NCBI GenBank assembly: GCA_014871385.1
Contig: CM026426.1
Coordinates: 79,093,566 to 79,157,565 of the forward strand
Origin: Ceratodon purpureus
Taxonomy: Eukaryota; Streptophyta; Bryopsida; Pseudoditrichales; Ditrichaceae
Direction: 5' to 3'
Length of the DNA stretch: 64,000 nt
Position 1 is the stretch's first letter, and every line of letters begins with the position of its first letter. Under the pieces are notes generated by a model, which saw nothing but the letters and a program-made list of their open reading frames with translations, was not told the DNA's origin and searched no databases. A program made the position numbers and the translations under genes. Shown here piece after piece: positions 9,528 to 57,042 of the stretch.

Positions 9528-9535
9528 ATCATTAG
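9528..9535. repeat. Left target-site duplication of the hAT element (ATCATTAG)
   Basis: ATCATTAG directly precedes the CAGGGTTGT terminus at 9536. The identical eight bases follow the opposite terminus at 19,623-19,630. Eight-base duplications are diagnostic of hAT transposition. Confidence 0.93.
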
Positions 9536-9615
9536 CAGGGTTGTCATAACGGACGGACATGGGCAAAATTTCCGGACATGGACGGACGGACGGACAGACT
9601 GGTCGGTCCAAGGTG
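9536..9615. repeat. Left hAT terminus and subterminal GGAC repeats
   Basis: The 9-bp terminal inverted repeat is followed by a cluster of GGAC motifs, including a run of four GGAC units near 9583-9598. The right end has a matching cluster in inverse-equivalent orientation. Clustered short subterminal motifs are where hAT transposases bind. Confidence 0.7.
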
Positions 9616-9739
9616 AAAATTGGACATTGAGGGGAGGAGGAAAATTACTAGGTTAGTTTTTTTTTTTTACAACTTACATATAGGGGAAACATATTGATGA
9701 CATGGACAACCAACGCTGACGGGGAATTCCACATATGCA

Positions 9740-9912
9740 AAAGGGGCGCCAGCGTGTTTAGGGGGGGGCGCCAGCGGGTTTAGAGGGGGCGCCAGCAAGG
9801 TCAAAGGCGGTGCGAGCGGGTTAAAGGGGGGACGCGAGCAGGTTAGGGGGGGCGCCAGCGGGTGGGGGGCGCGAGCACGTTTGAGGGGGGCGCGAGCGGG
9901 AATGGGGTGCGG
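9740..9912. repeat. Minisatellite array 1 (G-rich on plus strand)
   Basis: Imperfect units of about 20-24 bases, of the type GGGGGGCGCCAGCGGGTTTA, are repeated about seven times. The array lies downstream of the RING gene. Successive G-runs could form G-quadruplexes. Confidence 0.75.
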
Positions 9913-10175
9913 CCCATTTTGTAGATATAGTAAATTTTCGACAATGCAAAAAAAACTAACATTTCCATTAGAATAATATATTGGGGCTAAGCGCAATGAC
10001 AACTGTGTAAATTCAGCATAGGAAAAATGAGATACTCGTGAGCCAAAATACATGGACTTTGCAATGTTGTCTACATTTATGAAAGTAAAAGCATTTCATT
10101 ACCATTTCAAACCAAAACATTACAAAAACTGTAGTATACGAAAACTAGACTCTTAGTACTAAGTTGTATCTATTA

Positions 10176-12553
10176 CTACTCATCTGCATCTACTCCCGCC
10201 GTGCCACTTGGTCCCGCTCCATCGTCCAGCGTCAAGGTGCGCCTGGCTCTCGTCCGTGTCCGCCGAAATGGGCCATTGGTTTCACTGAGAGAATGCAAAA
10301 TTTGCGAGTTCCTCAATTGTGCCAATGTACGCAATGTTTGTGGAGAGTGTTCCTCTAGAAGAAAGTCAACAGCTTCATTTTTGAAAAGATACTTCCACTC
10401 CGAAAGAGACATTTGGACTGCCTCTTGGGCGGTAAGAGTGGCTTGACCTTCATTGTCTGTAATCAAGTTTCCCTCCTTGTTCCATATGAGGCCTTGTGGG
10501 TGCGTACTAAGTTGGAACTTCTTATGCTTCGCATCCCAGTATCCATTCAAAGTCTGATAGAAAAATTTTTGTTTCCTTGGTCCTCCTTCGCTGATCCAAT
10601 TATCTTCTTTGCCACCCTCACAATCTGCTTGTCGTCATTCTCCCACCTTAACTCGTCACTTACATTGCTCTTGAAGACCGAGTGAGTCAGGGCCCGCCAA
10701 CTCCAAATCAAATCTTCCTTCCACATATTGCGGTACTCTTCACTCGGTGTGTTTTCGGGATTTCTCTCATGGCTTGGTGACATGTATGGAGTGAGTCCAA
10801 AAACCTTGTACAAGCGTTCATGGAACGGGGATTTGCACATTGGGCAAAATCTCCTGACCAAAAAAATGTTAATTAAACACATTGGATGGAACATGTGGGT
10901 ATATGATCCATCTGCCCATCCACCCTCCGGACCAAATGGATTTAGACACACCATACATTGTTTCGAACCATCCAACATCCATGGTTGAGAATTTGGCCAA
11001 AGCTTTCTGCTTTTAACTCCTTCATTCATTTGAAGATCATAGCACGAAGTTGCGTTCGCCACATCAAAATCCAACTTCGCCCAATCTATGAGTTTAGAAT
11101 CCGATTCTTGCATTGGCAGAGTGAATGGAAACATATCATCTGCATTAATCCATGAAGTGAGGCCAAAATCACTTTGTCTGTTGTTTTGCAAGTACGATTT
11201 GTTGATCTTCTTGAACTCTAATGCAATTTGGCGACCGCGATCAACGCTGAGAATGGTTGCCACTTTCCACTCGTAGTATGATTTAGCGAACATCGAAACA
11301 AGGAGCCGCAATTCATCATTGGCTCTCATCAATGTCTCTACTTCTTCTGTTTGAGCATTGGATGGAAATGACAAGGAATCTTGACTTAATGGTCCATCAA
11401 TGTCCACATAGGGTCGCGCGTATGGGGCTAGTGGAGGCAATATCACTCCAACCCGTTGTCGTTTTGCTGGTGTGGAAAAATTCTCCAACACACCGGCCGT
11501 TGCAACATCAACTGTGTTGTTGATGTAAGATTCATCCACCAACATTGGATCCTGAACTACAGGTATATCATTGGCTTGAGAAGACTGAGGTCTTACTCGT
11601 TCTTGCAATTGATTGCGCTAATCTGTTATTACTGCATCTTTTCCTACTGATTCCAATTGTAGATTTTGGATGGTCTCTTGTAACTCTGCAATCAAACCAT
11701 CCTTTTCTATAAGCTTTAATTGCAACTCCCTGACCCCATTGGTTTGGTTAGACTGGTCATTTCTAACTATAATCGACATGCCAAGAACCATCGTAGGTGC
11801 AATTTCGACCACCTCCAAATTAGCTGCCGGATTCGGATCGTTTTCCATGAAGATGATGTTCACATCGTCGTGAGGTTCTGTGGCGTCCGCTGGATGGCTG
11901 ATTGGAGGCTCTACAGCCATATTTGCCGGTGCTGCAATTCTACGTGGCACTCTTTCTCCACGACGACCATCGGAATCCGAATCTGGTTCTGACTCTGCTG
12001 TATCAGGCTCCGGCACTTGTGTTTTTACCTTCATTTTTTTCCCCAGGCCACCATCGGGGTACTTCCTTTGTTTGGGAATGTCACGCTCTGTCGGCGTCCT
12101 AACACTCCTTGTGGGTTTGATGGTGGACCAATCCACCACTTTGTGAAGCACCACCTCAGCATACACCATTCTGCAAATGAACAATGGTGCTTCATTGCGT
12201 TCTACAGATTGTTGCTTGTACAGATGCTGGTAAACTTGTATACAACGTTCAACAAACTCCGCATTGAAGCAGAAGGTGAGGTTTGCCTTGTCTAAGATCC
12301 TGTGATTTTTGTGGCGCTCGTGCGGAAATTTTTTTGTGATGTGGCACCACTAAATGAATTCCTCGCATGTGGAATATTTCCACGATTCTGGCTCATCTTG
12401 CCAACCTCTAAATGCCAACTTTGTCGGGTTGTTCAACACATGAAGCCGCTTCTTCATCATCTTACCACCACGCTTCCCTTCACAATCTTTGATTCACTTC
12501 CTTTCTGCCTTGGTGAGTGGCACTGCCGCTGCCGGAGCTGGGTTTCCCTCCAT
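10176..12553 (-). pseudogene. Passenger gene in hAT: coiled-coil and RING-finger protein, broken
   Basis: An ATG at 12,553-12,551 opens a single-exon frame (start MEGNPAPAAAVP) of about 790 codons. Order of features: a basic N-terminal region (KRGGKMMKK), a Ser/Asp-rich acidic linker, a Leu-rich coiled-coil segment near 11,700-11,600, then a RING-type finger at about 10,958-10,828. The finger reads C-M-V-C, then HMFHPMC, then RFCPMCKSP. The C-terminus is Arg-rich, then GAGPSG, ending in TAG-TAA-TAG. RING fingers usually mark E3 ubiquitin ligases; that role here is inference. In-frame stops are TGA at 12,496-12,494, TAG at 12,352-12,350 and TAG at 11,620-11,618. A one-base shift is needed in the A/T homopolymer near 10,560-10,570. 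It is transcribed towards the left end, away from the transposase. Confidence 0.7.
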
Positions 12554-12664
12554 GGTGGTGTACTCGGAAAGTTGAGTGTGTTAAAAAACACACCAACTCC
12601 TCAAAACTTCGCCCAAATGATTTTACAAATCTCCTATGTGGTTAATTATGGTATTTTAACGATA

Positions 12665-12840
12665 ATTTATGGCCCACCCAAGTATTTAGCAATAAGCCAC
12701 CGTGAGGTAGTTTAGGGCCCATATTCCCGGATGAGCGTACAAAATAAGGTTGAAAGATGGTAAGTGGCGTTGTCAAAACACTGTAGACCCCACCCAAGTA
12801 CTCAGCAATAAGCCACAGTGAGGTAATTCAAGGCCTGAGT
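12665..12840. repeat. Two-copy ~118-bp repeat upstream of the RING gene
   Basis: The block CCCACCCAAGTATTTAGCAA... with AAGCCACCGTGAGGTA (about 12,669-12,722) recurs with few changes at about 12,786-12,838 (CCCACCCAAGTACTCAGCAA, AAGCCACAGTGAGGTA). The copies lie 110-290 bases upstream of the RING gene start on its 5' side, where promoter elements would be expected. No TATA box was assigned. Confidence 0.65.
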
Positions 12841-12897
12841 GCCAAGGTGGAGCTTAAAAAAGTGAGGGGAGGAGGCTCCCACTTCACTTATATAGTA

Positions 12898-13125
12898 AGG
12901 GGGGGGGGGAGCGGATTCGTGGGGGGCGCGAGCAGGTCGAAGGGGGGGGCGCGAGCGGATTCAGGGGGCGCAAGCGCGTTTAGGGGGGGCGCGAGCGGGT
13001 TTAGGGGGATCGGGGCGCGAGCGGGTTCAGGGGGCGGAAGCGCGTTTAGGGGGGGGGGGCACGAGCGGGTTTTGGAGGGGGGGAGGCGCGAGCGGGTTCA
13101 GGGGGGGGGAAGCGAGAGGGTCATG
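12898..13125. repeat. Minisatellite array 2 (G-rich on plus strand)
   Basis: About nine imperfect units of GGGGGGCGCGAGCGGGTTCA type. It has the same core as arrays 1, 3 and 4 (GCTCGCGCCCCCC on the other strand). It lies between the divergent RING and kinase-like genes. Confidence 0.8.
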
Positions 13126-13926
13126 GAGCTTGAGAAAAAGGCTCACTCGTGGTTCCCACTTTCTGTAATTCCAATATTGTACACATCAAATTTGAAGATA
13201 AGTAAACGAAGGATATTAGTAAAATGTTTAAGGAAAGATATAAAATATAAAAAAGAAAAAAAATGGAAGATACCATTTGTTACGAAAGAAAATTTCAAAA
13301 AAAAAAAAAAAATGATCTTCAATAACTATATGAACCTTAATATTGGAAGAGACATCAGAATTATAGAATCAGCAAGCATGTCTACACAATTGCAGAGCAC
13401 TGTCTTTGTTTTATTTTGAAGTATAATCAAAACACCATTTGCTTCAAGAAAATAAAAACCATATAAAATCATTGCAGTAGCGTTGAAGAAGGTTGGAAGA
13501 CAAAAATATAAACAAATATTAAAATAAGGAATACTGATTTGAAAAATTAGGGGATGAGACAATCAAATTATATAAAAACAATCATGACTATAATAAGAGA
13601 CTCGGGATAAAAAGGGATAAATAAAATAGAATGAAAGAAGTTATAAAGATAAATAAATCTCATAATGATTAGAAACTGAGTTATGCCTTAACGGAATAAT
13701 GATCTAATGTAGAATTAATAATAAAATGTTGACAGTAAAAAAGATCGATATTGGAAGAGATAAAGGGAATAAAATAAAATCAATAGCATGGAGTCGAAGA
13801 AAGTTGGATTAGAGATTAAAAAATCAATCTATATATTTTATTGAACATACGAAACAAACAATGCTCTAACATATAATTAAAAATATAAAAAACCATTACA
13901 ACGGGCTCAAGGCAATTGGATCTGAA
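13126..13926. other. AT-rich intergenic stretch inside the hAT element
   Basis: AT-rich DNA between array 2 and the kinase-like gene. It probably contains the latter's promoter and 5' leader, but no clear TATA box or ATG in frame was found. No other gene is supported. Confidence 0.45.
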
Positions 13927-15395
13927 TTGCATACTAGTTCTACTCCTTCATCTAGCTCGAAGGGGAAAAAGAAGAAGAGTATTGCGGCGCACGAGAAGGA
14001 TGACGGTTATCCACCATTGGAGTATACGCATTTCATCAGGAAGGTGACCGTCGAGTACTACAAGGCCCGTAGCATACGAATGTTGAAGACAATATACCTC
14101 GATCAAGGAGAGAATGGTATCTACAACTTCCAACGTGATTTGGAAAGGGAATTTTGGAGCGCATTGGAAGGGTCAGAGTTCTACATGGATTGCACAAAGT
14201 ATTATCACAGCCCGAATTGGTTGGCACAACAAGTGAGCAGTGATACGACAAATGTCATTCATGTGTTTGAATCACATGTGAAGAAACCACAAGGCGAAGA
14301 ATGGAGCAACCAAGACAAAGTATTTATTCAGAAACTGACAACGGTTCAGGAAGCGTGTCAGAGATTTTCCAAGGGGAAAACGTAGATTATGCCTTAGAAT
14401 GAACAAGCTTTGAACTCAGCATTGGAAGCACACATGTATGGTTCACTGATCTGGATTCCGGTTACAGCCAAAGTTGTGCCATTATTTGGCTTCAATGCCG
14501 AGGGGGGGTATGGCAAAGTGCAAAAAGTGCGAATAGCCAATATGAAGTGTATTCCAATTCACATCGAATTTGCGGGAAAACTTTCCAAGGCTAAAACTGA
14601 AGTGGAGCAGCGAGAGCAACGAGCGATTGAGGCCATGGTTTGCCCAGTAGAGCATCCGGGTCTGATAAAATTTTGGGCTTGTCACTCCAAGACCATGGAA
14701 GCTATCCTGTGGTGGAACGGAGATTGCCTCCTCAACTTACTCAAATTAAATGAGAAGGCGTCTGAGGCATCAAGTTACAAAGAAATTTTGAAGCTGAAGG
14801 AAATGCCCATGGAAAACTGCCAGAAAATTGTTGCCTATCGAAAGAACCGAGGAATGTTGGCATGGAGTCTCATCTACGTTATGGACATAGTCCATAAGGC
14901 TGAAATCCTCGACAACAACTAAACGCAATCCAACATTTTACTCCACTTTCCACCTCATGACAAGGATACAGTATATATTGGTGTGTGCGATTGGGGTGTG
15001 GCAAGCAGAGTCATTGAGAAGAAGGCCTCCCCTTATGGTTTGAGGAACGCCGATGATCTACCACGATTAGAGGAGAGGAGGGTAGGAGTTGCACCGGAGT
15101 TGTTTTTTTTATATGGCGACAAAGATGACGAAGAACGCTATTTGGAGCGCATGAATGTACGACGCAATCTGTTGCATTTTCGGTAGGCCATTTGGCAAAG
15201 AAGATATGGAAAGAGGAAGAATGCCCAGAACTCTTCAAGGATCCAATGTCAATGATTGCATTCTCATCAAAGTTGGATGGCTTGGTTAACGAAGATCATG
15301 CAAAGAGACTTTCACTTGGAAAAGTTGTGGATGATTTGATGAGTCCCCCTTACAACTTCCAAGCTCCCAATGGTTGTTTTAGATACACATTGTAA
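13900..15395 (+). pseudogene. Passenger gene in hAT: protein-kinase-like domain protein, broken
   Basis: One frame can be followed from about 13,900 across TAG at 14,383 and 14,395 and TAA at 14,920, then shifts by one frame between about 15,130 and 15,170 before TAA at 15,393. After an N-terminal region comes a glycine-loop-like GFNAEGGYGKV (about 14,482-14,514) and a possible ATP-site Lys in EFAGK. A catalytic-loop-like ILDNN-stop-TQSNILL follows (about 14,905-14,943), then CDWG (DFG-like, 14,986-14,997), an APE-like VAPEL (about 15,089-15,103) and SVGHLAKKIW (subdomain IX-like). In the catalytic loop the usual His and Asp positions read Asp and Asn, so catalysis is doubtful even without the stops. 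The start codon was not found. A kinase-like protein as transposon cargo is unusual; its role is unknown. Confidence 0.65.
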
Positions 15396-15596
15396 TTCCA
15401 TAGTGATTTACGTTTGGAACATTTTGATTGCCTATGTGGCCTTGTTTGCACGTTTCTAATATTTTAATAAATCATTTTTTCGGCGTATATGTGCTCGGGT
15501 GGAACATGAAATGATATTGCTAGTTTTGTAATGGAATGAAAAAATGTTTTAAAAAAAAAATGAAAAAAACTGTATGGCCCATACACCGGGACTGCC

Positions 15597-15862
15597 CCCT
15601 CAGAAGCTCGCGCCCCCCATTACAGAAGCTCGCGCCCCCCCCCTCCACTCATGCTCTCGCCCCCCCTTTCCCCATAAGGATTCGCCCCCCCCCCCCCCCC
15701 CTTCCCCAAAAGCACTCGCCCCCCCTTCCACAGAAGCACTCGCCCCCCCCCCCCTCTAGAAGTACTCGCCCCCCCTTTCCCAGCGGTACTTGCCCCCCTT
15801 GCAGAATCTCAAGCACCCCCTTGGAGAAGCTCGCGCCCCCCCTTGCAGAAGCTCGCCTAATT
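15597..15862. repeat. Minisatellite array 3 (C-rich on plus strand)
   Basis: About twelve imperfect units of GAAGCTCGCGCCCCCC or GAAGCACTCGCCCCCCC type lie between the kinase-like gene and the transposase. The orientation is opposite to arrays 1 and 2. Open frames across it are proline-rich artefacts. Confidence 0.8.
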
Positions 15863-16033
15863 TCATTTCAAATCATGGCCTCTAGTCCCGGAACTCCTTG
15901 TGGGCTCCTTGCTTGAGACTATGTGCACCACATTGGCCTGTGCTTGATGTCTACACATACCATTTTTTTCTCACATGTATCAGACTAACACTTGCGGACA
16001 AGAGATCATTGTACTTTTCCAGAGACACGGAGA

Positions 16034-18953
16034 ATGGCAGGTCAACAACGTCAATTGACAGCTGAGTGGGCTCCGTGGTGGACGTTCATTGATAAGGACC
16101 ATGTTAAATGTGTGTGGTGCAATTTCACTTTTTGTTATAAACAACAAAGAGCTATGAAGCACTATGGATGGGGTGAAGGTTCAAGCAAGAGTCATTGTTC
16201 AAGGCCCCTACCGCCGTATTTAGACGCTTTGCCAGTTGTGGTAATGTAATACCGAAAAGAATGACACATGTCTACCGTCCACCAGCGTACAACGCAATGC
16301 GAACCAAGCACATCCAGCCAACAAAGCAGCTTGTCAAGACAAAAATAGAGGAGAAAACCAAGCAGTGTATTAGCTTGTACGGGGCAACTATTTGCTCAGA
16401 TGGATGGGACAACGTTGTTCGTCGGCCGTTGATGAATGTCATGCTTGTGTGTCCAGTATGAGATATATTCCTTGGTTCCATTGATACAACGGGGAACAAG
16501 AAATCAAAAGCATACATAGCTGGAAAATTGAAAGAGTACATCAAAGAAGTTGGACCGCAGAATGTGGTACAGATTTGCTCTGACAATGCTAGTGCGATGT
16601 TGGGAGCCATGGACCAGGTGGTAGAAGCTTACCCACACATTTACAAGCAAGGATGTGCAGCTCACATCATGGACCTCTTACTAGAAGATTGGGGGAAGGA
16701 AGCAACCTTCAAAGAGCTGATTATCTTGGCAAAGTGCATACCGAATTTTATACGTCGTTGTCATGTGACCATGGCTTTGTTTTGCCAATTTAGCCCAAAG
16801 TTTTCTTTATTGTTACCAGCGGAGACAAGATTTGGATGCCAGTACTTGATGATTGTTCGATTGCTTGAGCTGAGGGAGGCACTTATTCAGGTGGTAGTCC
16901 ATCAGAAATGGGACGAATATGTGGGTACTTTATTCAATCGCCAAAACGGGCATCGTGCTCATGCCTTAGCAGGTCAAGTATGGAGTACCATTCTTGATGA
17001 GACATTTTGGTTACGTTGTGAGGATCTTGTGCATGTTATGAAGCCAGCTGTTGTGACTTTGTAGACCTTTGATGGACAAACACCGGCAATGGGGAGGGCG
17101 TGGTTGGCCATGAATAACCTGAAGAAGCATGTGTTCCGTCTACGGGGTGATCCTTTTTTCCTAGACCCCGATATAGCAGGGCGCTTTGAGAAACATTTTA
17201 CGAAGAGATGGAAGATGATGTTGACAGATCTCCAATACACAGGTGCCATGTTGAATCCCTACATTTTCCCGGAGAGCCACGAGCTATTGATTAACGGTGT
17301 TGCAAGGTGTGCACTCTTGCAAGTGCTAATTCGTTTAATTGAGTGCCTTGGACTGGACCATGATACTCTGATGTTGGAGCTAACACAATTTGAGGAACGC
17401 ACCGATCCATTCAGCCCTTTGGAGGCCCCAAAATTTCAACAGACTCGGATGCTACCTCATCAATGGTGGTAGCTGGTTGGGGGCGATGCGTTGCCCTTGA
17501 TAGCAAAGCGCATCCTTTCGTTAACATGCTCGGCATCATCATGTGAGCGAAATTGGAGCATGTATTCCTTTGTTCACAGTAAGGTTCGCAACCGATTGGC
17601 CGTGAAGAAGGCAGAGTACTTGGTGTACATTTACACCAACAGTAAGCTCCTTCGAGAACGACGTGGAGCGGATCCTGTTCTTTGGTACAAGAACCAACCA
17701 TTCTCCAAAGACTTAGATGAAGAAGTTCCAGCCATGTACGATGAAGAAGTATGTGATGATGATGGAGATGAAGGATTCCACGATGGAGTTGAAGATAATG
17801 AAGGCGATGGTGACGACGGTGGAGTTCATTATACTCCTGCTACTATGGATGATGAGTATCCAGAGTTACCCGTGGACAATGCTGGTGGTGACATGCCACG
17901 CACTGAACCCGTTAACCAGCCGAATGGAGTTTTTGACTGGGCAGGATTTGATGAAGAGGCAGCTACTTCGCCTCACCACGTTGTCAATGAAATACAAACT
18001 AGAGGCGAGGTCGCATACGATCGGGCAGAAGATGATATTGACGATGAATTTGAAGTCGAAATGACTCAGCATCAAAGCGACGATGGTGGCGATAATGATG
18101 ACATTCACCCCGTTCGTAGCGTTTCCAACAATGACAATGAAGGAGGGGGTAACAACATGGGAGAGCAAATTCCAATTCCACAAGACGTTGAGGGAGTAGA
18201 AGAAGTTGAACAACTTCGAGGCGCTCTGCCAGAAAATGTTGAGGAAACAATCACGTCCGGAGGTTTGAATGAAAGCCCTCCAAGAAATGAACAATCAGAG
18301 ACAGTTAGAAATGGACAAGAGGATGAAATTCCTATTGGCCAATTGTTTCAAACACCGCTGCCCCAGAGTACACCTTCAATCGGAGCAGTACTTGCAGGGT
18401 TGGGTAGACCTCCCCCACCTCGTTCAAGCAGATCTACTGGGCATGGTTCAATTACTCCAACATTGAATACAAGTGTTCCACTCACTTCTTCTGGAGGAGG
18501 TCTACCGGCTGGACCTTCTACGACGCGTCGTGGAGTAATACGGTCACGTAAAGGTCCAACAAACGTTCGCCCTTTTTTTCAGGATATACTGTTGGGACGA
18601 CCCCGTCTTTACCTATGGCTGTAGGTAAACGTAGATTACCCGTAATGAATGTGGACGGGATCACCGATAAGACCAAAAGACGGAAGGTCAAAAGAATTGT
18701 GACTACGGTGGTGGATGGTACAATCGATCACGTATTGCGCAACATTCATTCCACGGTGGAGGAGTATGTGCCTATTAATTGCGGAGATGGAGATGACGAG
18801 GGCTCAGAATCCTCAGATGGATCGGATTCATCGGAAGATAGTCGCGCAGAAGCACCTAATGATGACGACATTGTTCTAAGAGTACCATTGGGTATGCTCG
18901 GTACTCAAAGGAATCCGGAGCGGCGCACCACCAGAAAAAATTTAAAAAAGTAA
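16034..18953 (+). pseudogene. hAT transposase (BED finger, DUF659, C-terminal dimerisation region), broken
   Basis: ATG at 16,034 opens a BED-type finger with WAPWWTF, then CVWCNF and MKHYGWG (about 16,070-16,190). After a frame change near 16,200 the DUF659/RNase-H-like core follows. It has CSDGWD (about 16,393-16,410), CSDNAS (about 16,576-16,593) and CAAHIMDLLLEDW. The dimerisation region carries SSCERNWSMYSF (about 17,536-17,571). The two Asp and the Glu of the hAT catalytic triad are therefore visible. A long acidic Asp/Glu/Asn-rich tail and a Ser/Asp-rich end (to TAA at 18,951) follow. Breaks are TGA at 16,459, TAG at 17,062 and TAG at 17,470, plus a shift in a seven-T run near 18,571. 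It would cut and rejoin the element's ends in the nucleus. About 960 codons, longer than usual because of the acidic tail. Confidence 0.9.
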
Positions 18954-19227
18954 TACATCTTTCAGCATATTACATATAGAAGTTATATAGACAAAGTATA
19001 ATATATATGACTCCAACAAAATTTAAAAAAATCACAAAAAAATATAATATATATATTTATACGTAGATACTTATATGTTAACCTTAGTCAATGTCCATAA
19101 AACATTAGCTAAGGCTATTGAATGTAATTTTGTTTCAACATGAATTGAAACTTCTCTCATTTATGTCACTATGAAAACTTCACTCATGTCTTAATTTCCT
19201 TCAATGCCTGATTTTTGTTCCCCGCTC

Positions 19228-19329
19228 GCGCCCCTCCTTCGCAAGCGCTCGCGCCCCCATCCACCCTCTTGCTCGCGCCTCCCCTCCCCCCGCCCCCTCG
19301 CTCGCGCACCCCCTTTACAGGCGCTCGCG

Positions 19330-19365
<36 letters not shown>

Positions 19366-19396
19366 CCCCCTCGCTTGCGCCCCCCTCCCCCAAGGC
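19228..19396. repeat. Minisatellite array 4 (C-rich), with a 35-base C homopolymer
   Basis: Units of GCTCGCGCCCCC type flank an uninterrupted C-run at 19,330-19,364. The array lies downstream of the transposase, with the same orientation relative to it as array 3. The homopolymer length may be unreliable. Confidence 0.8.
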
Positions 19397-19539
19397 GTTG
19401 GCGCTCTTCCTCTTAGCCACGTCATCCTCCGTGTAAACTCTAAATGTGGAATATTTGGTGACATGTCAGACGCGTGGCATCCTAGGTGGCCAAGGTAACT
19501 TCCATTTCACCATTTGGACGGTCAACCGTAAGTCTCGGT

Positions 19540-19622
19540 CAAACGGACTTCCCCTGACCTTTAAAGGACGGACGAGCGGACCGGACGGACGGACCGGTCT
19601 TTATGTCCCATGAACAACCCTG
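19540..19622. repeat. Right hAT terminus and subterminal GGAC repeats
   Basis: GGACGGACGAGCGGACCGG-type repeats at about 19,565-19,600 precede the terminal ACAACCCTG. They mirror the motif cluster at the left end. Confidence 0.7.
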
Positions 19623-19630
19623 ATCATTAG
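19623..19630. repeat. Right target-site duplication of the hAT element (ATCATTAG)
   Basis: Identical to 9528-9535. Together the two copies define the exact insertion boundaries. Confidence 0.93.
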
Positions 19631-23915: not shown

Positions 23916-25300
23916 TTAAAGCTCTGTGAGGACCTCCGCCACCACCTGAAGGTTTGCAATATCCATGTCTACGTTCATGAAATTGTTCGCATATGTTGCC
24001 TCAGCTGCCTCGAGCTCTGCGTGCACTTTAGCAATGACCGTGTCTTGACGCCGAGTCTTTAATTCCCACGCATTGAATTGATGTTGACAATTTCCGGCGT
24101 TCTCATACCAGGACTGAACCAGGGATTCGCACATCCTGATGAAAGCCTTCTTCGATGCTAGTTCTTTTGTTAGGACATCACGAGCTCTCTCATACTCTTC
24201 TTCCGCTCTGTCTCGGGACTGGGCCTTCTCTGCTAACTCACCCGTCAGAAATTTCAAACGTTCCTACTCTTCATGAGGACGAAATCCACATTTCTCTATT
24301 TCAGCGCCCGCGTCGTGTCGGCCCTGGCTGAACTTTGCAATCTCCGCATCCACGACAACAGCAAACTTGTTACGCATAGTTGAGAAACCACCATACGCTC
24401 GAGGTCCAACAATGGGAAAGCCTTGACGTGTTCGACCGGTGCGTGACAAAGAACTACGACGACGAGGATTGTGCTGCTCTCCCTTCACAACAAGTTGTAC
24501 CGGGTTTGAGCTGGTGGATCCAGGACATCTATTCTTGCCATGTTCATTTGCAAGGTCTGTCCCTAATTTTGTGTGACATGCGGTATCCACCAGCGACGGA
24601 ACGGGCTGCAATTGTGTCACCATGCACATAAGTATGACGACAAATGATATGGAATTCAAGCGATGCTGAGCCATATTGCAATGAGAACTTAATAAAAAAA
24701 ACAAAACGACCTCAATTGTATTGCAAGAGTCTATCACGATTATGACATTCTGGGCGGGCAATTATATCGAGAGCAATTTAAACAGCAGATGCCAAGATAA
24801 AACCAGAGAATTAAGGACAGTTTTAAGAAAGAAGATAGAGGGGGGCTGGCAAGACGCATGTACTTGAACATGCGATGTTGGCAGAGTCTTCTCAATGAGC
24901 TCCAGGGGTGGTCGAAGACGCTCGAACTCCGGAAGAAGTCGAGGGTGCTTTGTGCTGCTTTGATAAGGATGCGTCATTTTGTAAGCAAACTCGCTCCAAT
25001 TCACCTCCTTGTGCATCGCTTCAGCTAGAATACCCCGTGCAAAATGAAATGGAATGACTCTCGATACCGGCCACTGCAATTGAAGGAGAAGCTTGTAGAG
25101 TTCCTGTACATACTTCTTGTACTCGGAATTCCCGTGGCTCTCAAAGGTATACCCTGATCCATGCTTTGGCCCGAAGAATTCGCTCAGCTGACGGCGGTTT
25201 GGCAAATACTCAGTAGGAGTCATCGTCGGCACAATACTGTCGCTGGAGAGTCTCATGTACATAATGAACCAAGGAATCGTCAAAGCGCCAAGCTTCTCCA
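23916..25300 (-). pseudogene. Two-exon hypothetical protein with C-terminal coiled coil, TAG-interrupted
   Basis: ATG at 25,300 (start MEKLGALTIPWFIMYMRLSS) opens the first exon, which likely ends near 24,857. A second exon begins after a good acceptor (CACAATTGCAG|) near 24,608. It carries TAG at 24,266-24,264, then a Glu/Lys/Ala-rich coiled coil (GELAEKAQSRDRAEEEYERA) and ends near 23,916. It lies directly downstream of the TNP2 transposase on the same strand, so it may be the element's second gene, but it does not resemble TnpA that I can recognise. Exon 1 has Trp-, Phe- and Pro-rich blocks (PFHFARGILAEAMHKEVNWSE) without a known family. Confidence 0.45.
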
Positions 25301-25929
25301 TTGAGTCTCCGTCACAGGTATTCTCCCATACAAATTACGCTCTAGACTGCTCCTACACATGAGCAACAAGATGAAAATAAACCATGTTGCCTCATAAGGA
25401 AAACAGAGGATATGGAGTATAAGCCTGGGGAAACGAAGTAATGCTCAGGGTACCTAATTACGAGCTCAATCTAATGATGGCTAAATCGGATCAGATATAA
25501 TCATTAACGAGGCTTAGGGTCTTACCTGTCTTGTCCGATGGGACAGCTAGGAACCCAGAAGTGGGCGCTCAAACACCAAAGGTCTCATCAACTATCTGGA
25601 AAACAAAGACTGACCAATTACCTCTCAAGTGAAGATAGATATGGGTGTCTCTAGGAATTTCAGGTATACGTTGCGGTTAAATCTAGCCTACGGGTTCCCA
25701 ATGCGTACGTGATCTACCTAGAAAAATTCACTCCTTAGTAGTTTTTTTAAATACACTACATAACGACCTAGCTACCGTGTAGATATTCACTACTTTGCGT
25801 TTTATTATAATAAAGCATTTATCTTCATAGATAGAAGGGTCATTCAATACTTTCAGCTCAAACAGCACTAGAAATGACAAGGAAGCATGATACATTGCAA
25901 AACATAATTGCAGGTCAAGAAGGTTCGAA

Positions 25930-27874
25930 CCTCCCAATATGGCAATTGAAAGAGTGCAAACACCCTTTTTATGCCGAACAGGCGTGCTGGGTCTTCTGAT
26001 GCAGGACTGGAGCCATGAGCTACCCAGCTCTCACAAAGATGGCCCCATCTTTGAACGTCTTTTGCACTCACTTTGGCAGGTGGTCCTCGATGTTCCTCAA
26101 CACTGCCCCACTCTGGACTGCCCCTTCTCCACGGATGATCCTCTGGCAAATAACGGCAGTACTGATTATCATAAACATTTTTGTGTAGTGGCAAAGACCG
26201 CCGTGAAATAGTGTTGGGGCTGCAAACAGGGCACCCACGGTAGCCCTTTGACACACAACCTCCGACGACCTCGTATGCGGGAAAGTCATGAATTATCCAC
26301 ATTAGAATCGCTTTCATGTCGAAATGTGAAGAGCCCTGGAACCGCGACACATCATTTGTTGGCACACCTAGTTCCATAAGATCTGTAGCTCTTCTAGAAG
26401 AGACTGCAGGTAAACATCAAATTTTTTGCGCGTAACAGATCTTTTGCCGGGTATAGTGAGACTCAGCATTATAAAATGCCTCTTCGTCGTCATCCAAGGG
26501 GGCAAGTTATAGTTCAAGATTAAGACTGGCCAAGTACTCCACGTAGAGCGTTTGACCAAGAAGGGATTAACTCTGTCCATGGCAAGTCCAAGGCGCAAGT
26601 TCCGCGGCTCGTTCGCGAATTCATCCCTCCATTTCCAGTTAATGTACTTCCACTGATGTGAGTCGACAACTCCCCGCATCACACCATCCTTGCTCTCCTG
26701 CCTGGCATGCCATGTCATGTAGGATGCCTGCAGCGGAGTGCTATACATACGTTGCAGCCGTGGTATCAGAGGGAAATGTCTCAACACCTTTGCTGGCACC
26801 TTGCTCTTCCCAACCATCTTGTATCTTTCTGCATTAGACTTAGGACACTTACTGAGGTTGTCGTAATCTAGCCTTTTAAACAAGATGCATGTCTTTGGAC
26901 TAGGACAACAGTGGATGGTTTCATATCCTAGACCTAGTTGTTTGAGCACCTAAGACGCCTGGTACTCATTTGAAGGCAGAGAATTCACCTTAGGCAATAT
27001 ACTCTTACTCAAGATTCCAAAAATTTCATTCACAAGCTGGTTGGAAGCATTGTGAGTACGAAGTGAATTGAGTAAAAGAAGGGTACCACCTAGTTGAGTG
27101 AGACCGCTCCCTGGGAAAAGCGGGGTGGTTGCGCTCTCTTCGAGAATTTGATGCTGTGTAGGAGGACCTTGCTCCATTGCTCTAAGATCATCGTCAGCCA
27201 TGTTGTCATCCATGGCCTTTGCAGCGTCAAGAACAGCTGCAACATAAGGAGCTTCTCCACCTCCCTCTACCGGCTCTTGCATCAGACCAAAGTCCTGATC
27301 TCCACCCGTTTCGTTTTCCCCTTGGGCGGTGTCTTCAAGATCTTTGTCCTAAACGTTGTTAATGGTACCGACCAGAGAGTCGTACACATGGAAAGTGTGT
27401 TGCACTAATCGCTCCATGTTTGCCCCCTGGTCCAAAACGCGCCTAGCATGTTCTCAATTCGCTTGACCCCTTGCCTCGTACTGCTCCCTTATGTCTTGGT
27501 CCCACTCACTATCAGAATCATCAGGATCAAAACCCTAAGCAAATAAATTGTTAGCCCAGGAGCAAGTTGAGCGAAAGCATGTTATATTGCGAGCAAATGA
27601 TCTAAGGGCATTAAACGCTGGTTAATAAATTCAAGAAATCAAGTATTCTTACCTCTGTGGAGCCTCGGTGCTCTGGATGTCGACCATATGTCTGTAGGTG
27701 TTGACGAATAACGGCACGGAACCTCATCGACGAGGTTTGCCCTAGGCAAATGTTACATGGGCATACCCGTTTCTGACTCCCTGACCTCTCGACCAGAAGC
27801 TCCTCTCTGAAGTTCAGCTTCTCATCTCGTCGAAGAATACGAGCCTTATCCCGCAATTGACCAGCGCTCTCACT
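25930..27874 (-). pseudogene. CACTA (En/Spm) TNP2-type transposase, broken
   Basis: Exon 1 (27,874-27,653) encodes a zinc-binding start, CPCNIC...HLQTYGRHPEHRGSTE, typical of TNP2 N-termini, and ends at a GAG|GTAAGA donor. Exon 2 (27,534 to about 25,930) opens GFDPDDSDSEWD. It continues with KQLGLGYETIHCCP, then NPRNLRLGLAMD-type and RHFIMLSLTIPGKR blocks, DFPAYEVVGG, KGYRGCPVC, CRYLPEDHPWR and LPYWE before a possible donor. These are the standard Transposase_21/TNP2 landmarks in order. Breaks are TGA near 27,455, TAG near 27,345, TAG near 26,945 and a one-base shift near 26,378. The C-terminal part after LPYWE was not found. The enzyme would cut and move a CACTA element; termini were not identified. 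Confidence 0.85.
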
Positions 27875-29542
27875 CTGTGTCAACATTATAAAGCAAAGAA
27901 ATGGAAGACACACTGTCGGACTAGTCGTTGTTAACACAGGACAACCTCCTTGAGGACTGATGCATTTATCTCTGTGAAATGAATGAGCAGTGTCGTTGAT
28001 ATCATTGCAGAACGGTCACATTGAGAAACTCATCAGTATGAAAGTACATAAGTTGGATGAACGTAAAGGGTACTCCGTTTATTTAAATATAGAAAATAGC
28101 ACCGAATATGTAGAATGCCCACTGCTTACAAGCGCCAAGGTATTGATGCGGCGCTTAATTCTAAACAAGTCTACTTAAACCCAGGACTCAAGTATGCTAT
28201 GCTACCATAGACTGAAGCCACGACTATGTGGCATAGGTTCAACCAATTCCACTAAAACCTACATCTGACTTTCTGATTCACTATCTCATAGTCTCCTACA
28301 ACACGCAGTGATCTAGATGAGAGCCCACACAGAAATCAAGAAGTGTCTGCATGAGATCGCACCATACCGAATCTGCCAACTTGTGCAATATCCGAATGAC
28401 GTGTAGCACAATTGCTCCAGAGACGAAAAGGCTCAGATGACGGCAACCCCCCTTCATCATTCCGAATCCTTCAAGCGTCTCGCAAAACCACTACGGTTGA
28501 CGGTGCAGGTCACAATGAAAACTTGTTATCAGCTCATCTTCGGAATCTCGATCGACGCTGTCCTCCACCACCCTTCTTCTCAAGTCATCGACTTCTAGAA
28601 TAGTCGACACTTGGAACCCCGACTATGTCAGACCATCTCTTATCTCATCGTCACGATCAGAAGCATACATTGGAACTCCTATCAGCAATGAAGATATGGA
28701 GTCACATCGAGTGTAATCGCCTGTATCTTCGCAATCACAGTCTTCACGAATCGTTCCACTGGAATCCACAAACTCGGACACAAGAGCAGTGTCTTTGGTT
28801 CCACTGATGTGCTCAAAGCGAGATGCCCGATTGTAAGAACACATCGGTGTAATGCTTATGGAATTACTAACCCGTGCCATCCAAGGGTCACACTCTACGT
28901 GAATCACACCTGCAGAATCCCCTCAACAACCACACGAGTGTCCAAACACTCCTTATCCTCAAAATCTCTGAGAACATCCTCAAGGTCACCAAAGTTCCAA
29001 ATGCTAACAATTCTACCGTAAGAGTCCCTGTGCATAAGTCCAACCCGTACCATTGTCTCCGGACTCCATCCCTCCATGATACCTATTGCAACTTTACGAA
29101 GGCAGTGGCGAACACCGTGATCGAAACTGCTATCACGAACTAAGATGCATGTCGAAGAAACTCTCCAGCATTGAAAGCCCTGCGGTTCTTAGAAGTGTTC
29201 CCAATCCATGTTACCAACTGCTAGTTCCCATAGTTCCCTAGGCTATCCTCATCTTTGAATGTGATCTCCCATGGATCCTAATACTACCTTCCGTGTCAGG
29301 CTCGGAACGGAATGTAGAGGCTATAGGAAGGGCGCCGGCCACTGCAATTGCAGCGCAAGGAAGATCATGCCTACATCAATTAGACTATAATTGAAACCTC
29401 TAACGTGAGAAGGACAGATAGCGCTTCCGGTTTAGCATATCGACGCCTTTTCAGGTGTCCATGATCGTAAGCACTTTCTAGCAATCTATTTTATTCCAGA
29501 TCCGCCTCCGACCTAGTTGCTCATCACTGTCTTGCAACCCTA
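27875..29542. other. Spacer between divergent CACTA-type genes
   Basis: No motif-bearing open frame. It presumably contains the 5' region of the minus-strand TNP2 gene and of the plus-strand genes further on. No clear terminal or promoter repeats were seen. Confidence 0.35.
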
Positions 29543-37346: not shown

Positions 37347-39118
37347 TGTGTACCATGTGATCTCTTGCTTGTTGTAGGCTGTTCCACACACTTTAGAGGT
37401 CTTGACGCTCTGAAATCGGGTTTGCAGAGGTGCAGCAGTTACTGTTGGGAGTCTATAGGAGTGCTGAACTGCTGTCAGTGAAATTCCAAGGTGCTGAAGA
37501 GTTCGTGGTTGGTTGGATGTAGTCACTGTAGTGGTAGATCAGGTTGGCAGATGCTGTCCAACCACTGGAAGGGGTCCAGGAATCAATCGGGAGGTGAATT
37601 GTTGGAGTAGAGGGGGACAGTGAAGCAAAGAAGTTTCAGGTGTTTTCAGGGGTGGAAACACAAGTGCACCGACAGATGCAGTCCAGCACGTGTCCATGGA
37701 GCAGTAGCAGCAGATAGGTTTTGTTGCGAGCCGGTGGGCGCAGGTGCTGTGAAGATTAAAGGACCAGGTTTTAGGCAGCTGACTCGTGTGAACAAAGGGC
37801 TGTTCACCACTCAAAAAAGGGGATAGGGCGGCTACACGTCAGAACTGAAGTCCATCTGTACAAGAGGTGAAAGGCGAGTAAACCGTAATTCTAGCATTTT
37901 GAAATTCAAAATCTCAAATCCGAAAATTTAGGATCTTGAAATTTGAAATTTGAATTGTGGACCTCGATTTGAGACCTCGGTCGGCTGTGGAAATTTTGAT
38001 TTGGGACCTTAGTCGACTATGAGACTTGGTTTTGGGATGTCAGCTGAGACTTAGCACTTGTACGTAGGGGGCAGGACGAGTCAAATATAATTGAAAAAAC
38101 AGTTGCTGAGAACATTTGGCAAAAGGGGAACTTCTGTCCAAATTAACCACGACTGTAACCAATGGACTGAACTTCTAAAGATTAGTGCAGTGTGAAAAAG
38201 GGGATAGGAGTAGCTAACATACTGATGTAGTGAATTGCTTCGATCTATTTCTACTTGCTCGGAAACTGCTTGTTGTTTCTAACCCGACTACACAGCCGAC
38301 TTGCTGGCGTCACTTAGTGCTAAATTGGCAGGTATAAGGAAAGGGTAGCTGACTGACTGGAGCCTGGAGGAAGCCAAGTAGAGCTGACCAGACCAGTAGC
38401 AGAGCAGCAGCTGCAGACATTAGGAAGGAAAAACAGTGGACTGGAGCAGCTATGGAAAGGGTATCTGACTAATAGGAGCCTAGAGGAAGCCAAGCAGAGC
38501 TGACCAGACCTAAAGCAGAGCTGCAGCTATAGACATCAAGGAGGAAACACAGTCAACTGAGCAATCGAGCAGTCAACATCCATGGAGGACGGTGACCTGA
38601 CCGACTTGAGAGAGCGACAAGCCATAGAGCGCTACAGACGCTACATGCAACGGGAGGAGCGGACAATAGAGCCGACTCCAGTAGAAGGGCAGGGCTGACT
38701 TAGTTCGCAGGGGACTACGGCTAAGCAGGTCATGGAGCTTGTCGACATGGATGTGGAACACGACCTGTCATCATCAGATGGGAGGTTGAGGGTGAGAAGA
38801 TTTGGAGGGGGAACACAGTTCAAAAATGGGGATAGGATGAGTAGTTAGCCAGACTCGACTGGCGTTCCTTGGAGGTACCAGGACATGAAGCGAACGGCGT
38901 CATTCAGGAGGGACTTCTCTACTGCTGTAGACGACTACAACACCTTCCGTGAAGAGAGACGACAGACGTAGGAAGTCTTCGCAGAGCGGACCGAGTGGCC
39001 CTGTACAGTCACTAGCAGAGCAGACTTAGAAGCGGAGCCGACTCAGCTACGCCGTCGACCCGTATCTCCAGTACGCCTACCAAAGACTCTAGAGACACTG
39101 CCAGCCACATTCCAAATA
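37347..39118. other. Leader of element B with repeated polypurine tracts
   Basis: No convincing open frame. Polypurine tracts of the form AAAAAGGGGATAGG or AAAAATGGGGATAGG occur near 37,813, 38,197 and 38,824, resembling the tract that precedes the 3' LTR at 50,927-50,940. A 116-bp direct duplication lies at 38,338-38,562. Confidence 0.5.
38338..38562. repeat. 116-bp tandem duplication in the element B leader
   Basis: The unit starting GGAAAGGGTAGCTGACTGAC (38,338) recurs with scattered changes from 38,454 (GGAAAGGGTATCTGACTAAT). Both continue through GGAAGCCAAG and GAGCTGACCAGACC. Confidence 0.75.
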
Positions 39119-41978
39119 TTGAGGCAGAAGTTGGAGGAAACGAAGAGTCGATCAGCACAAGAGCAGGGTCTTGCACACCCGACTAAAGGTGGCCTAGGTA
39201 AGAATGTGCACTTCCTGGATGAGTTCCGACTAAAATCGGAGTGGGAGCAAGAAGAGGAGGACCAAAGGGCAGTTGAAGCATTCACATCAGACCTGTTAGC
39301 CAAGCGGGAACGGGCCCGTCAGCACCACCCGACACAGACTCACAGTTGGCCCGACCCAGGTATATACCTCCAGCAGCTGGAAGCCCTGCAGCAGAATGCA
39401 CCTTCAGGTTTAGCGTCGTTACATCACTGGTATACAGAGCCGTAGTGGCCGTCAGAGCAGCATCGTACTTCGCTGGAGGTGGAGTTTAAGCGACGAGTGC
39501 AGGAGGCAGCTCAACAGTTGGCAGCTCAGCAATTGGCAGCACAACAGTCGGCAGCACAACAGCTTGCTGCGCAGCAGAATGAACAAGAACGGCTGGAACG
39601 GGAGAAGCACGAACTAGCACAGATGCAAGACCTGTGGGAGGAGCAGCGAAGGTGGCAAGAGCAGGCGCGGACTGAGGGAGATGCTGCACGACCACCTTAT
39701 TTATTTAGTTCAACACTAGATGTGACGGTGGATAAGAGTGTACCCGGACCACTTCTGGCTGTGACTACCTCGACCCCACATCGACTCCCAGAGTACGTGG
39801 ATCATCTTATGGGCGACGTGTACCAATCTGCGCAGCCAACCCAGTCAGCACGGTATCCCGGGAGACTAGCAGACTCGACTTTTTGAAGATCCACTCCATG
39901 GAGCTGCCCACGTGGGGCGATCTACATGTGTCCCACCATTTGCTACCCCTATCGGCTACAGTACCGCCGCCATTCTCAAAGGTTCACTCACTGCCCCAGC
40001 TGTTCCTCACTTTCCGGTACATTATACAGCGCCATTGACAGTACCCCCTCTAGTATTGCCACCGGTTCGCACAACCGACTTCACGTCAGCAACACCCCGA
40101 CCGCCGGTCAGTGCACTGAAGAAGCAGTTACCATACAGGGCCTACAAGGAGGGAAACGACCCCGACGCTCATCTCAGGTATTTCGACAAGTGCGCTTGGT
40201 TTAATGGTGAGTTTGATGAGACAATAATCATTACCCTGTTTGGGACTATCTTGGTCGACAAAGCCCCGCGCTAGTTCGATGACTGGCTGGATCATCACCC
40301 TTACTGCACCTGGGAGGAGGCTAAGGAAGCGTTCAAGCCGCATTATAGGGAGCAAGATTCTAATGAGCAGGTCTACATGACGTTGCGAACATTCAAGCAG
40401 GGTGAAGGGGAGAAAATGCAGGATTACTACGAACGATTTATGAAGTTGGTCAAATGCTTGTAGACCGATGTGGGTGAAGGGTTCAAGCTGACATACTTCA
40501 GAGCAGGGTTACTTGAGTATCTGAAGGTGACCACTAGTCGGTCTACAGCCAATACCCTCACTGAGTTAAAGGAGTTGGCCCGACGCTGTGAGACCAACTG
40601 CACCGACGCCTCGCCTAAGAAGCTGTATTTCGAAGCTAAGAAGACGGAGTCGACTGGCAGTCAAGCCGTAGCCACCGCAGCCCAGGCAAAGGGAGTTAAG
40701 ACTCTAAACCGAAGGTTTTGCGCTGTTTGTAAGAATTTTGGACATGAAGACATTAACTATTTTGTCAATTTGGCCAACCCCAACAACATGTTACCTAGAT
40801 TTGAAGGAAAGCCGACCGTACGAGTCCATGAAGTATCGACTACAGAGCCGACCAGTGTCTCTGGGAGATCCGTCACCAGCCGACCAGGAGGGTATTAGAA
40901 TGGAGGATCGAGCAGGATCGATGGATGCTTCCTTTGGCTAGGAACTGAACATCAGATGCGTAATTGTCGTTTATGCTTGAAGTTGCAGCAGTTACAAGCT
41001 GCTGAAAAACAAGGTACTAACACTGTTGGTGTCAACAGTGTGGAATTGCAGGAGATCGATGACCCGGAGGAGGCCACGATATTGACCAGAGCAGCCCGAA
41101 TACAAGCTGGACTGCCCCTAGAAGACAAGGAGGTGAAGGAGCCTGAGTCCAATAGCCAAAAACACAAACTCACTGAGAGAAGGAAGAGCGCCTTCGAAAG
41201 GAATTCATCGCTTTTACAGAGGAGATTAACAGAGAAAACGAGCTGGCCTGACAGGCTGAAGAGGCGCTGCAGAAGGCCAATACAGCCGACTTGGAGACCA
41301 ATACTCCTGAGGGGCCCAATTTTAGATGGCGACTGGGTCTAATTCCTCGACCCCGATTGTCTACAGGAGGTACCAAAGAAACCCTTGGAGGTAGCCACTG
41401 AGGAGCCGGTCAATTCACAGGCGCATGCATTGGCCAAAACAGTCAGTCGACAGATTCTGCAGACACCAATCACAGTGTCTTTAGGGGAACTGCTAGAGAT
41501 GGCCCCCAACCTCACAGAGTATGTCAGGGCCAAAGTATTCCCTCAAATTCAGGGTCTGTCCAAAACACCAAATGACTCGACTCATTTCCCTGTGACCTTC
41601 AAGATGCCACAGCCGACTATACACCCGACATCGACTTCAGCACCAAAGCTGTGTTCTACCGACTCACAGGTACATCCCAATCTTGTTGTAGGAGCTATGG
41701 ATATTGATCGGGGTCTTCCGGTTATTTCTATGCAGGTCGGGCAGTCAACGCTGGAGAACGTGCTGTTGGATGGAGGCTCCAGCGTCAACTTGATTACAGA
41801 GGAGGAAAGGATTCGAGTGGGACTCAAGGATCCGTCTCCAGCACCCTATCGATTGCGTATGGCTGACCAGGCAGTGGTGGAACCAGTCGGCCTGATCCGG
41901 AATGATCGTATTCACATCCACAGTATTCCGTACAACATCAGTCTGACTGTCATTTGAAACAAGGAGGTTAACGAAGCT
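39119..41978 (+). pseudogene. Element B gag and aspartic protease, broken
   Basis: The gag region opens about 39,119 with a coiled coil that includes five AAQQL-type repeats (39,508-39,570). The frame changes near 39,890, then the capsid domain follows (FDKCAWFNGEFDETI, YREQDSNEQVYMTLRTFKQ, DYYERFMKLVK). Two degraded zinc knuckles lie near 40,720-40,765 and 40,928-40,975. Protease is recognised by NVLLDGGSSVNLITEEE at about 41,757-41,807. In-frame TAG near 39,443, 40,272, 40,461 and 40,896, TAA near 41,340 and TGA near 41,955. After NKEVNEA the coding sequence jumps to RNase H, so reverse transcriptase is deleted. Confidence 0.8.
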
Positions 41979-41999
41979 GCATGCTGCCGTCTCGACCAA

Positions 42000-56203: not shown

Positions 56204-57042
56204 GAGTGGTACGATTAATATATTATGAATGTAACACAGTTGTATATGAGTTGGGGAGTATTTGTACTCTGAGACTTCAAATTGTAGGTGCATTCAGGCT
56301 AATTGCCGGACTTGCATTATTTATTTATTTATATCTATGAATGGTCATATTATATTTCAATAAATTTACAAGAGAGCCTTTTACAGCTCACTAAAATCAT
56401 AATTCAGTATGATCAAGTTTTGAATAACATTGAAGGATCGTTGATAACACACACTTGGCTCTTTTGCAATGTATATCACTCATGAATTTATAGTCAGTGA
56501 TTCCATAGCTGATACATGGTAAGATATATTGATCAAAGGAGACTTTCAGATGAAAGGATGTGGACTAGTACTGTTACAGTTGAGGTTTGGAGGTTTAAGG
56601 GGTAGGGGTGTAGATCAATAGATGCACTCCTTGACTCCAACGTCTTAAGGCGTTTCAATGTACCTCACGCTAATATGTATTCCCCTCATGACTGTACAGA
56701 TCCGGGAGGTCCAATTCTAATGACCTTGTATAATAAAGGTGCCTCCTATAAATCAATGCTTTCACACACTCCTAATGTGAATATTTAATATGGGCATGCA
56801 GTTTGCGGCTTGGACCATCATTACTTCTTGGCTCACGTTCTCTGAGCTTGGTGCATCCAATCCAGCTTGTAGGTCTTCGTTATACTCCTTGTTTACTCAC
56901 ACATTGTAATGTGTCTACGCGGGATTGCTTTGAACAGTCCATCTACTTGCATTACCAGTGAAACGTTAGTATGTTAGTTTGCTTATCTTGGAGAAGTTGA
57001 AGGCAGACCGTTGATACATTTCAGGGGTGTGTTAGAGAAGAG
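56204..57042. other. AT-rich intergenic stretch
   Basis: No gene supported. An acceptor-like ACATTTCAG| near 57,025 just before the next ATG suggests an intron in the 5' leader of the downstream gene. Confidence 0.4.

Follow-up and report, generated by a model that had tools for sequence, protein, structure and literature searches.

A large hAT transposon family of the moss Ceratodon purpureus carries conserved protein kinase and RING-H2 genes

Why would a DNA transposon carry a protein kinase and a RING-finger protein beside its transposase? The question is raised by a 64,000-nucleotide stretch of the Ceratodon purpureus genome (C6:79093566-79157565, hereafter the window), in which an earlier reading, made from the letters alone, had recognized a hAT element with these two cargo genes. 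The element in the window proves to be a defunct member of a large, autonomous hAT family from C. purpureus, in which the kinase and RING genes are linked to the transposase, often have unbroken frames and encode conserved catalytic or zinc-binding residues. We therefore regard the cargo as a conserved part of the element, and consider it unlikely that the two genes are passengers or nested transposons.

The element spans positions 9536 to 19622 of the window (10087 bp), boundaries that were read in the sequence and recovered by a script that paired the ends with a perfect 8-bp match. Its termini are CAGGGTTGT at the left and ACAACCCTG at the right, with terminal inverted repeats CAGGGTTGTCAT (9536-9547, + strand; copies of the terminal 201 bp recur throughout the genome) and ATGAACAACCCTG (19610-19622, − strand), and the target-site duplication ATCATTAG flanks both ends (9528-9535 and 19623-19630), exactly as the sequence-only reading had it. 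Inside lie a RING-H2/coiled-coil gene (10176-12553, − strand, upper end placed by eye), a protein kinase gene (13900-15395, + strand, start approximate) and a hAT transposase gene with DUF659 and Dimer_Tnp_hAT domains (16034-18953, + strand), a content likewise proposed beforehand and borne out by the frames, by Pfam and by comparison with intact copies. All three genes are decayed, the RING and kinase genes by stops and a frameshift each and the transposase gene by stops and a gap of ~120 codons relative to intact copies. Pfam gave DUF659 (3.2e-21) and Dimer_Tnp_hAT (2.2e-4, exactly at the cut-off) in the transposase pieces and a weak PF13639 match (1.1e-3, under the cut-off) in the RING piece, while the kinase pieces reached no kinase family in Pfam. 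Within the coding parts of the decayed copy, changes of the C-to-T type were about three times commoner at CG (57/526) and CHG (41/419) than at CHH (69/2072) sites, an excess consistent with methylation of dead copies.

The hAT membership of the family is carried by an 8-bp duplication, short inverted termini of the CAGGG type that is the consensus of hAT ends, and a C-terminal dimerisation region. The intact transposase matched DUF659 (5.6e-33) and PF05699 (1.6e-6) in Pfam, and among 15 sequences D244 and D305 were conserved in at least 90% and E626 was invariant, positions that we take, from the hAT motifs, to be the catalytic D, D and E.

The genome searched measures 362.5 Mb, and each search scored the best candidates only, which makes all genome counts lower bounds biased to query-like copies. 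With the terminal 201 bp as query, the best 40 of 538 candidates, the window's own included, were 91-100% identical, and a transposase piece (best 150 of 955 candidates scored) fell in many cases within open frames of ~1109 codons. From these we fetched ten copies by choice, eight with long transposase frames and two diverged ones (e09 and e10), and paired their ends within the fetched stretches with the exact motif. Four of the ten were complete elements with perfect duplications, namely e02 (11677 bp, AAGCTGCC), e05 (11722 bp, GTCCGCGC), e06 (13356 bp, CTTCCGGA) and e08 (12450 bp, AACACGTG); e01, e03, e04, e07, e09 and e10 had no end pair with a duplication within the stretch fetched, with the exact motif used. 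Because there are 40 terminal copies and four further elements with perfect and different duplications, the window element is more than a chance arrangement.

The gene set of the four further complete elements, a RING-H2 gene on the minus strand, a kinase gene and a DUF659/hAT transposase gene, is constant in order and orientation. Across all ten fetched copies, the transposase was present in 10, the kinase in 10 and the RING gene in 9 (absent from the stretch fetched of e03, partial in e07). Intact single frames encode a RING protein of 792-793 amino acids, a kinase of 526 and a transposase of 1094-1097; all three are unbroken in e06 and e08, and also in e01, the left end of which was not found, while e05 keeps the RING and transposase frames and e02 the transposase frame alone. 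The expectations attached to the sequence-only reading were thus largely realized: further copies share the termini, five elements including the window copy have perfect and mutually different 8-bp duplications, the cargo order is constant with a narrow kinase-transposase spacing, unbroken frames could be recovered and are common in the cargo among scored matches, and the contrary outcome, copies that never carry the cargo, did not occur.

The same linkage was seen genome-wide. An intact kinase as query gave 82 full-length matches (best 82 of 1414 candidates), of which 76 had no stops and 6 had internal stops, and 70 of the 82 were followed, 1435-1727 bp further along that strand, by a scored transposase match; the remaining 12 had no transposase match within 6 kb among those scored. 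For the RING query (P0107; best 57 of 1701 candidates), 47 matches were free of stops and 10 had stops, with a scored kinase within 8 kb in 32 of the 57 and a scored transposase within 1.5-14 kb in 43. Near 47 of these RING genes a kinase and/or transposase lay with the expected order and strand, both near 28 and neither near 10, and 21 of the 28 RING-kinase-transposase loci were free of stops in RING and kinase alike. Behind 12 of the best-scored 40 window-like left ends there was at least one scored gene. Scored kinase copies are spread over contigs C1-C13, and a divergent kinase (P0012) as query returned the same family throughout (best 81 of 1367 candidates, 47-48% identity), with no second kinase family among those scored.

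Derivatives without the gene set are also present. A 458-bp miniature (L002:1501-1958) has both ends and the left array and no genes; its duplication matches at 7 of 8 positions (TCTTCTAA/TCCTCTAA), and its right terminus differs at one base. Two further loci, L004 (715-1699) and L005, have the left end followed by inverted kinase 3′ sequence, the same rearranged derivative twice, and in L004 it directly adjoins another copy's right end. Given the gene-less L002 and the L004/L005 derivatives, the element ends alone may therefore suffice for mobilisation, as in other hAT families.

The intact kinase of copy e01 matched PF00069 (1.3e-10, 41.5 bits, above the cut-off of 31.7) and has the eukaryotic-type protein kinase signature, with the Lys/Glu pair, HxD...N and DxG. 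Lys250, Glu267, Asn363, Asp364 and Asn369 were invariant in 25 sequences, with His362 and Asp388 at 90% or more; in a wider set of 51 sequences, Lys250, Glu267, His362 and Asn363 were invariant and Asp364, Asn369 and Asp388 at 90% or more. By its sequence, the element kinase is a eukaryotic-type protein kinase with conserved active-site residues and predicted catalytic activity. Among profiles of solved structures, various protein kinases matched (best E 4e-5), in most cases over the region of the catalytic loop. A collection of 5.8 billion proteins held 105 kinase homologues (97, 76, 67, 68, 65, 62, 56...% identity by rank), and the family is conserved down to 24% identity with its active-site residues kept; in a tree of 33 sequences, strongly supported at 20 of 30 inner branches, the Ceratodon protein lies inside this family. 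A viral origin was considered and rejected, as none of 38 pattern matches in viral contigs was confirmed. Prokaryotic genome contigs gave at least 592 pattern matches and one confirmed relative, 34% identical over residues 340-395, on a contig of a metagenome-assembled genome. One homologue (P0099, 28% identity) is labelled as from a Bacilli metagenome bin and is perhaps eukaryotic contamination.

The RING protein of copy e01 matched PF13639 at 28.5 bits, just above the cut-off of 27.3. Its ligands C533, C536, C551, H556, C559, C570 and C573 were invariant in 17 sequences, and position 553, read by eye, was H or C in all 17. The best relatives of solved structure were RNF24, RNF38 and Arkadia (best E 1.2e-6). 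On these residues the protein is a RING-H2 finger protein, ubiquitin-ligase-like, with predicted E3 activity. The same protein collection, with the best ~8000 candidates scored, held 26 RING homologues (96, 76, 69, 63, 75 (84% covered), 60, 66 (85% covered), 58, 57, 50...% identity by rank), conserved down to 39% identity with the zinc residues kept, and, scored likewise, 35 transposase homologues (79, 64, 62, 82 (a Ceratodon fragment), 56, 56...%).

A single step in these rankings (at 56, 50 and 56% identity) comprised 47, 47 and 43 member sequences in the kinase, RING and transposase families, respectively, and these matching numbers, spotted after the fact, hint that the three genes may travel together elsewhere. 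For homologues chosen as about full length (27 of 105 for the kinase, 19 of 26 for RING and 19 of 35 for the transposase), the contig was at most 1000 nt longer than the frame in 17 of 27, 12 of 19 and 14 of 19 cases, respectively. Judged by their size, such short contigs may be transcripts.

Purifying selection on the cargo, which the sequence-only reading had put forward as a check, left a modest signal within the genome beside the deep conservation of both families. We pooled close pairs of our own choosing, e06-e08, e01-e05 and e02-e04 for RING and e06-e08, e01-e05 and e03-e04 for the kinase and transposase, not all of them intact on both sides (e04 has one RING stop, e02 a RING frameshift and e05 one kinase stop). 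Against a neutral nonsynonymous share set by hand at 0.78 (the synonymous site counts imply ~0.78-0.79), the nonsynonymous share was lower in RING (46/71, p 0.0075), kinase (22/36, p 0.016) and transposase (44/75, p 0.00013). Comparisons with decayed copies gave ratios of nonsynonymous to synonymous rates (dN/dS) of 0.29-0.77, as expected once neutral decay is added. Conservation across the protein families makes a stronger case for constraint than these within-genome tests.

A further feature common to the family is a repeat unit of ~21 bp, with the core GCGCGAGC and a run of G. Each of the five complete copies has it as arrays at both ends, upstream of the RING gene and in the kinase-transposase interval. 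In the window copy, these arrays lie at 9743-9910 (+ strand, subterminal, with a GCGCGAGC/GCGCCAGC-type core and the G run on the + strand), 12899-13116 (+, G strand, upstream of the RING gene), 15600-15860 (−, C strand, inverted, between kinase and transposase) and 19220-19390 (−, C strand, right subterminal). The four long copies have an extra array before the kinase that is largely missing from the window copy. Units in the left half of the element show their G strand on top, those in the right half their C strand; the exception is one lone C-strand unit next to the kinase array in each long copy. Between arrays the core is constant and the spacer variable, for example before the transposase in e05, and the fetched flanks held 0-2 units per copy. 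One ~21-bp unit thus stands at both ends and before genes, which suggests that the GCGCGAGC arrays would be a single shared target for an element-encoded factor.

Taking these observations together, we consider it probable that the working form is an autonomous three-gene hAT element in which kinase and RING protein serve as accessory factors acting through the arrays. The transposase would cut and paste the element, to judge from similar copies at different sites, and the GCGCGAGC arrays would be bound by a protein of the element, for which the candidates are the transposase, with a Cys/His segment at its N-terminus, and the RING protein, with a conserved basic N-terminus. Through the arrays, the kinase and the RING protein would act on the family, either by modifying the transposase or by marking host silencing or repair proteins through phosphorylation and ubiquitination, such that the element could be expressed and moved. 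Because many copies keep the cargo genes unbroken, the cargo probably helps the element to spread or to resist silencing by the plant, and an accessory system for expression or movement is the most economical explanation of two conserved regulatory enzymes and operator-like arrays. A bolder version, which we entertain tentatively and hold to be rather doubtful, is that kinase, E3 ligase and a DNA-binding partner would form the element's own signalling system at a GCGCGAGC operator found in the family's promoters and ends; it would disarm host silencing or repair at just these copies and thereby drive a recent burst over the chromosomes, the V chromosome among them.

Several observations weigh against the accessory-factor reading. 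Pfam found no significant DNA-binding domain in the transposase, and the choice of array-binding protein is a guess; just two of the five complete copies (e06 and e08) have all three frames unbroken; and the three-gene linkage was seen in the Ceratodon genome only, other organisms yielding separate proteins. The selection signal within the genome is modest, because dN/dS in single young pairs scatters from 0.10 (kinase, e06-e08) to 1.00 (RING, e01-e04) and reaches 0.91 in the transposase itself. When e05 was compared with e02, e06 and e08, the genes were 97.8-99.1% identical and the RING-kinase gap 91.6-93.0%, but identity was as high as in the genes in two non-coding parts, the left terminus (97.8-98.7%) and the sequence that follows the transposase (97.6-98.9%), so that the contrast between genes and gap is not simply one of coding and non-coding sequence.

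Plant DNA transposons often capture fragments of host genes, and the kinase and RING genes could be such chance captures by Pack-type transduplication, passengers without a role, as would fit cargo that lacks a transposition domain and has dN/dS near 1 in single young pairs. We nevertheless consider this very improbable, given full-length unbroken frames for the kinase (76 of 82 scored matches) and for RING (47 of 57), constraint in the pooled pairs, families conserved to 24% (kinase) and 39% (RING) with their active-site or zinc residues, and one array core before both cargo and transposase. Alternatively, the cargo might serve the host, with the transposon dispersing, for instance, a kinase or E3 ligase of the moss; homologues do turn up in numerous public data sets, frequently on contigs about as long as a transcript. 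We give this little credence, as the scored copies are many, recent and spread across C1-C13 and have decayed relatives, as a transposon burst would leave them, and no single-copy host orthologue appeared among the best-scored matches. The window is rich in other repeats, which might have made the cargo genes look like other transposons nested in the hAT element, yet the order is constant, the kinase-transposase spacing stays at 1435-1727 bp in 70 of 82 cases and five elements have the same arrangement within one outer duplication pair, so that nesting is, in our judgement, extremely improbable.

The family can be compared with several known systems. Like other members of the hAT superfamily (Ac/Ds, Tol2-like; DUF659 branch), the Ceratodon element has 8-bp duplications, CAGGG... 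termini, subterminal repeats and a transposase that has DUF659, Dimer_Tnp_hAT and the conserved D, D and E, but it adds the conserved kinase and RING-H2 genes, reaches 11.7-13.4 kb in its long copies and has the end-repeat unit before genes as well. Pack-type elements are DNA transposons that carry host gene fragments, a likeness in non-transposase coding sequence, whereas the Ceratodon cargo is complete, conserved and common to the copies examined. Some CACTA, Mutator and Zisupton elements carry Ulp1-type proteases and so also combine a conserved enzyme of the ubiquitin/SUMO world with a transposase; the Ceratodon family, of another superfamily, has a RING-type ligase-like protein and a kinase rather than a protease. 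VANDAL elements are Mutator-like, and their VANC protein is not known to be a kinase or a RING protein. VANC of Arabidopsis VANDAL is a transposon-encoded anti-silencing protein with targets that often take the form of tandem repeats, differing from one related element to the next (PMC5735166); this may parallel, in function, the GCGCGAGC arrays and an accessory protein encoded by the Ceratodon element. The Ceratodon element differs from VANDAL in its hAT-type transposase and 8-bp duplications and is not Mutator-like, and anti-silencing by its cargo is possible with VANC as precedent. We found no description of a hAT family with kinase and RING genes in the literature searched, Repbase and most subscription papers being outside its scope, in agreement with the earlier statement that no such plant family was known.

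Elsewhere in the window, frames at 24264-28015 (− strand) resemble, by eye, a CACTA-type transposase, and those at 38972-44185 and 52003-53640 (+ strand) resemble, likewise by eye, gag-pol remains of a gypsy-type long terminal repeat retrotransposon. A 372-amino-acid open frame at 57001-58119 (+ strand) looks by eye like a frame beside copy e02 on C1 and perhaps belongs to another repeat family.

We take C6 (110,524,308 bp) to be the V chromosome; the protein-search matches included a transposase homologue from C. purpureus, KC19_VG232100, in the name of which VG is taken to stand for V. C6 makes up ~30% of the genome and held 22 of the best-scored 40 window-like left ends versus 20 of the best-scored 82 kinases, and the V chromosome may be a place where older copies pile up.

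Few transposons are known to bring regulators of their own, and those regulators are mostly proteases or small anti-silencing proteins. With many unbroken copies in a culturable haploid moss, the Ceratodon family would allow a direct test of whether a transposon can turn phosphorylation and ubiquitination on its host, and would offer a way to study the consequences of such systems for U/V sex chromosomes, which are large and do not recombine.

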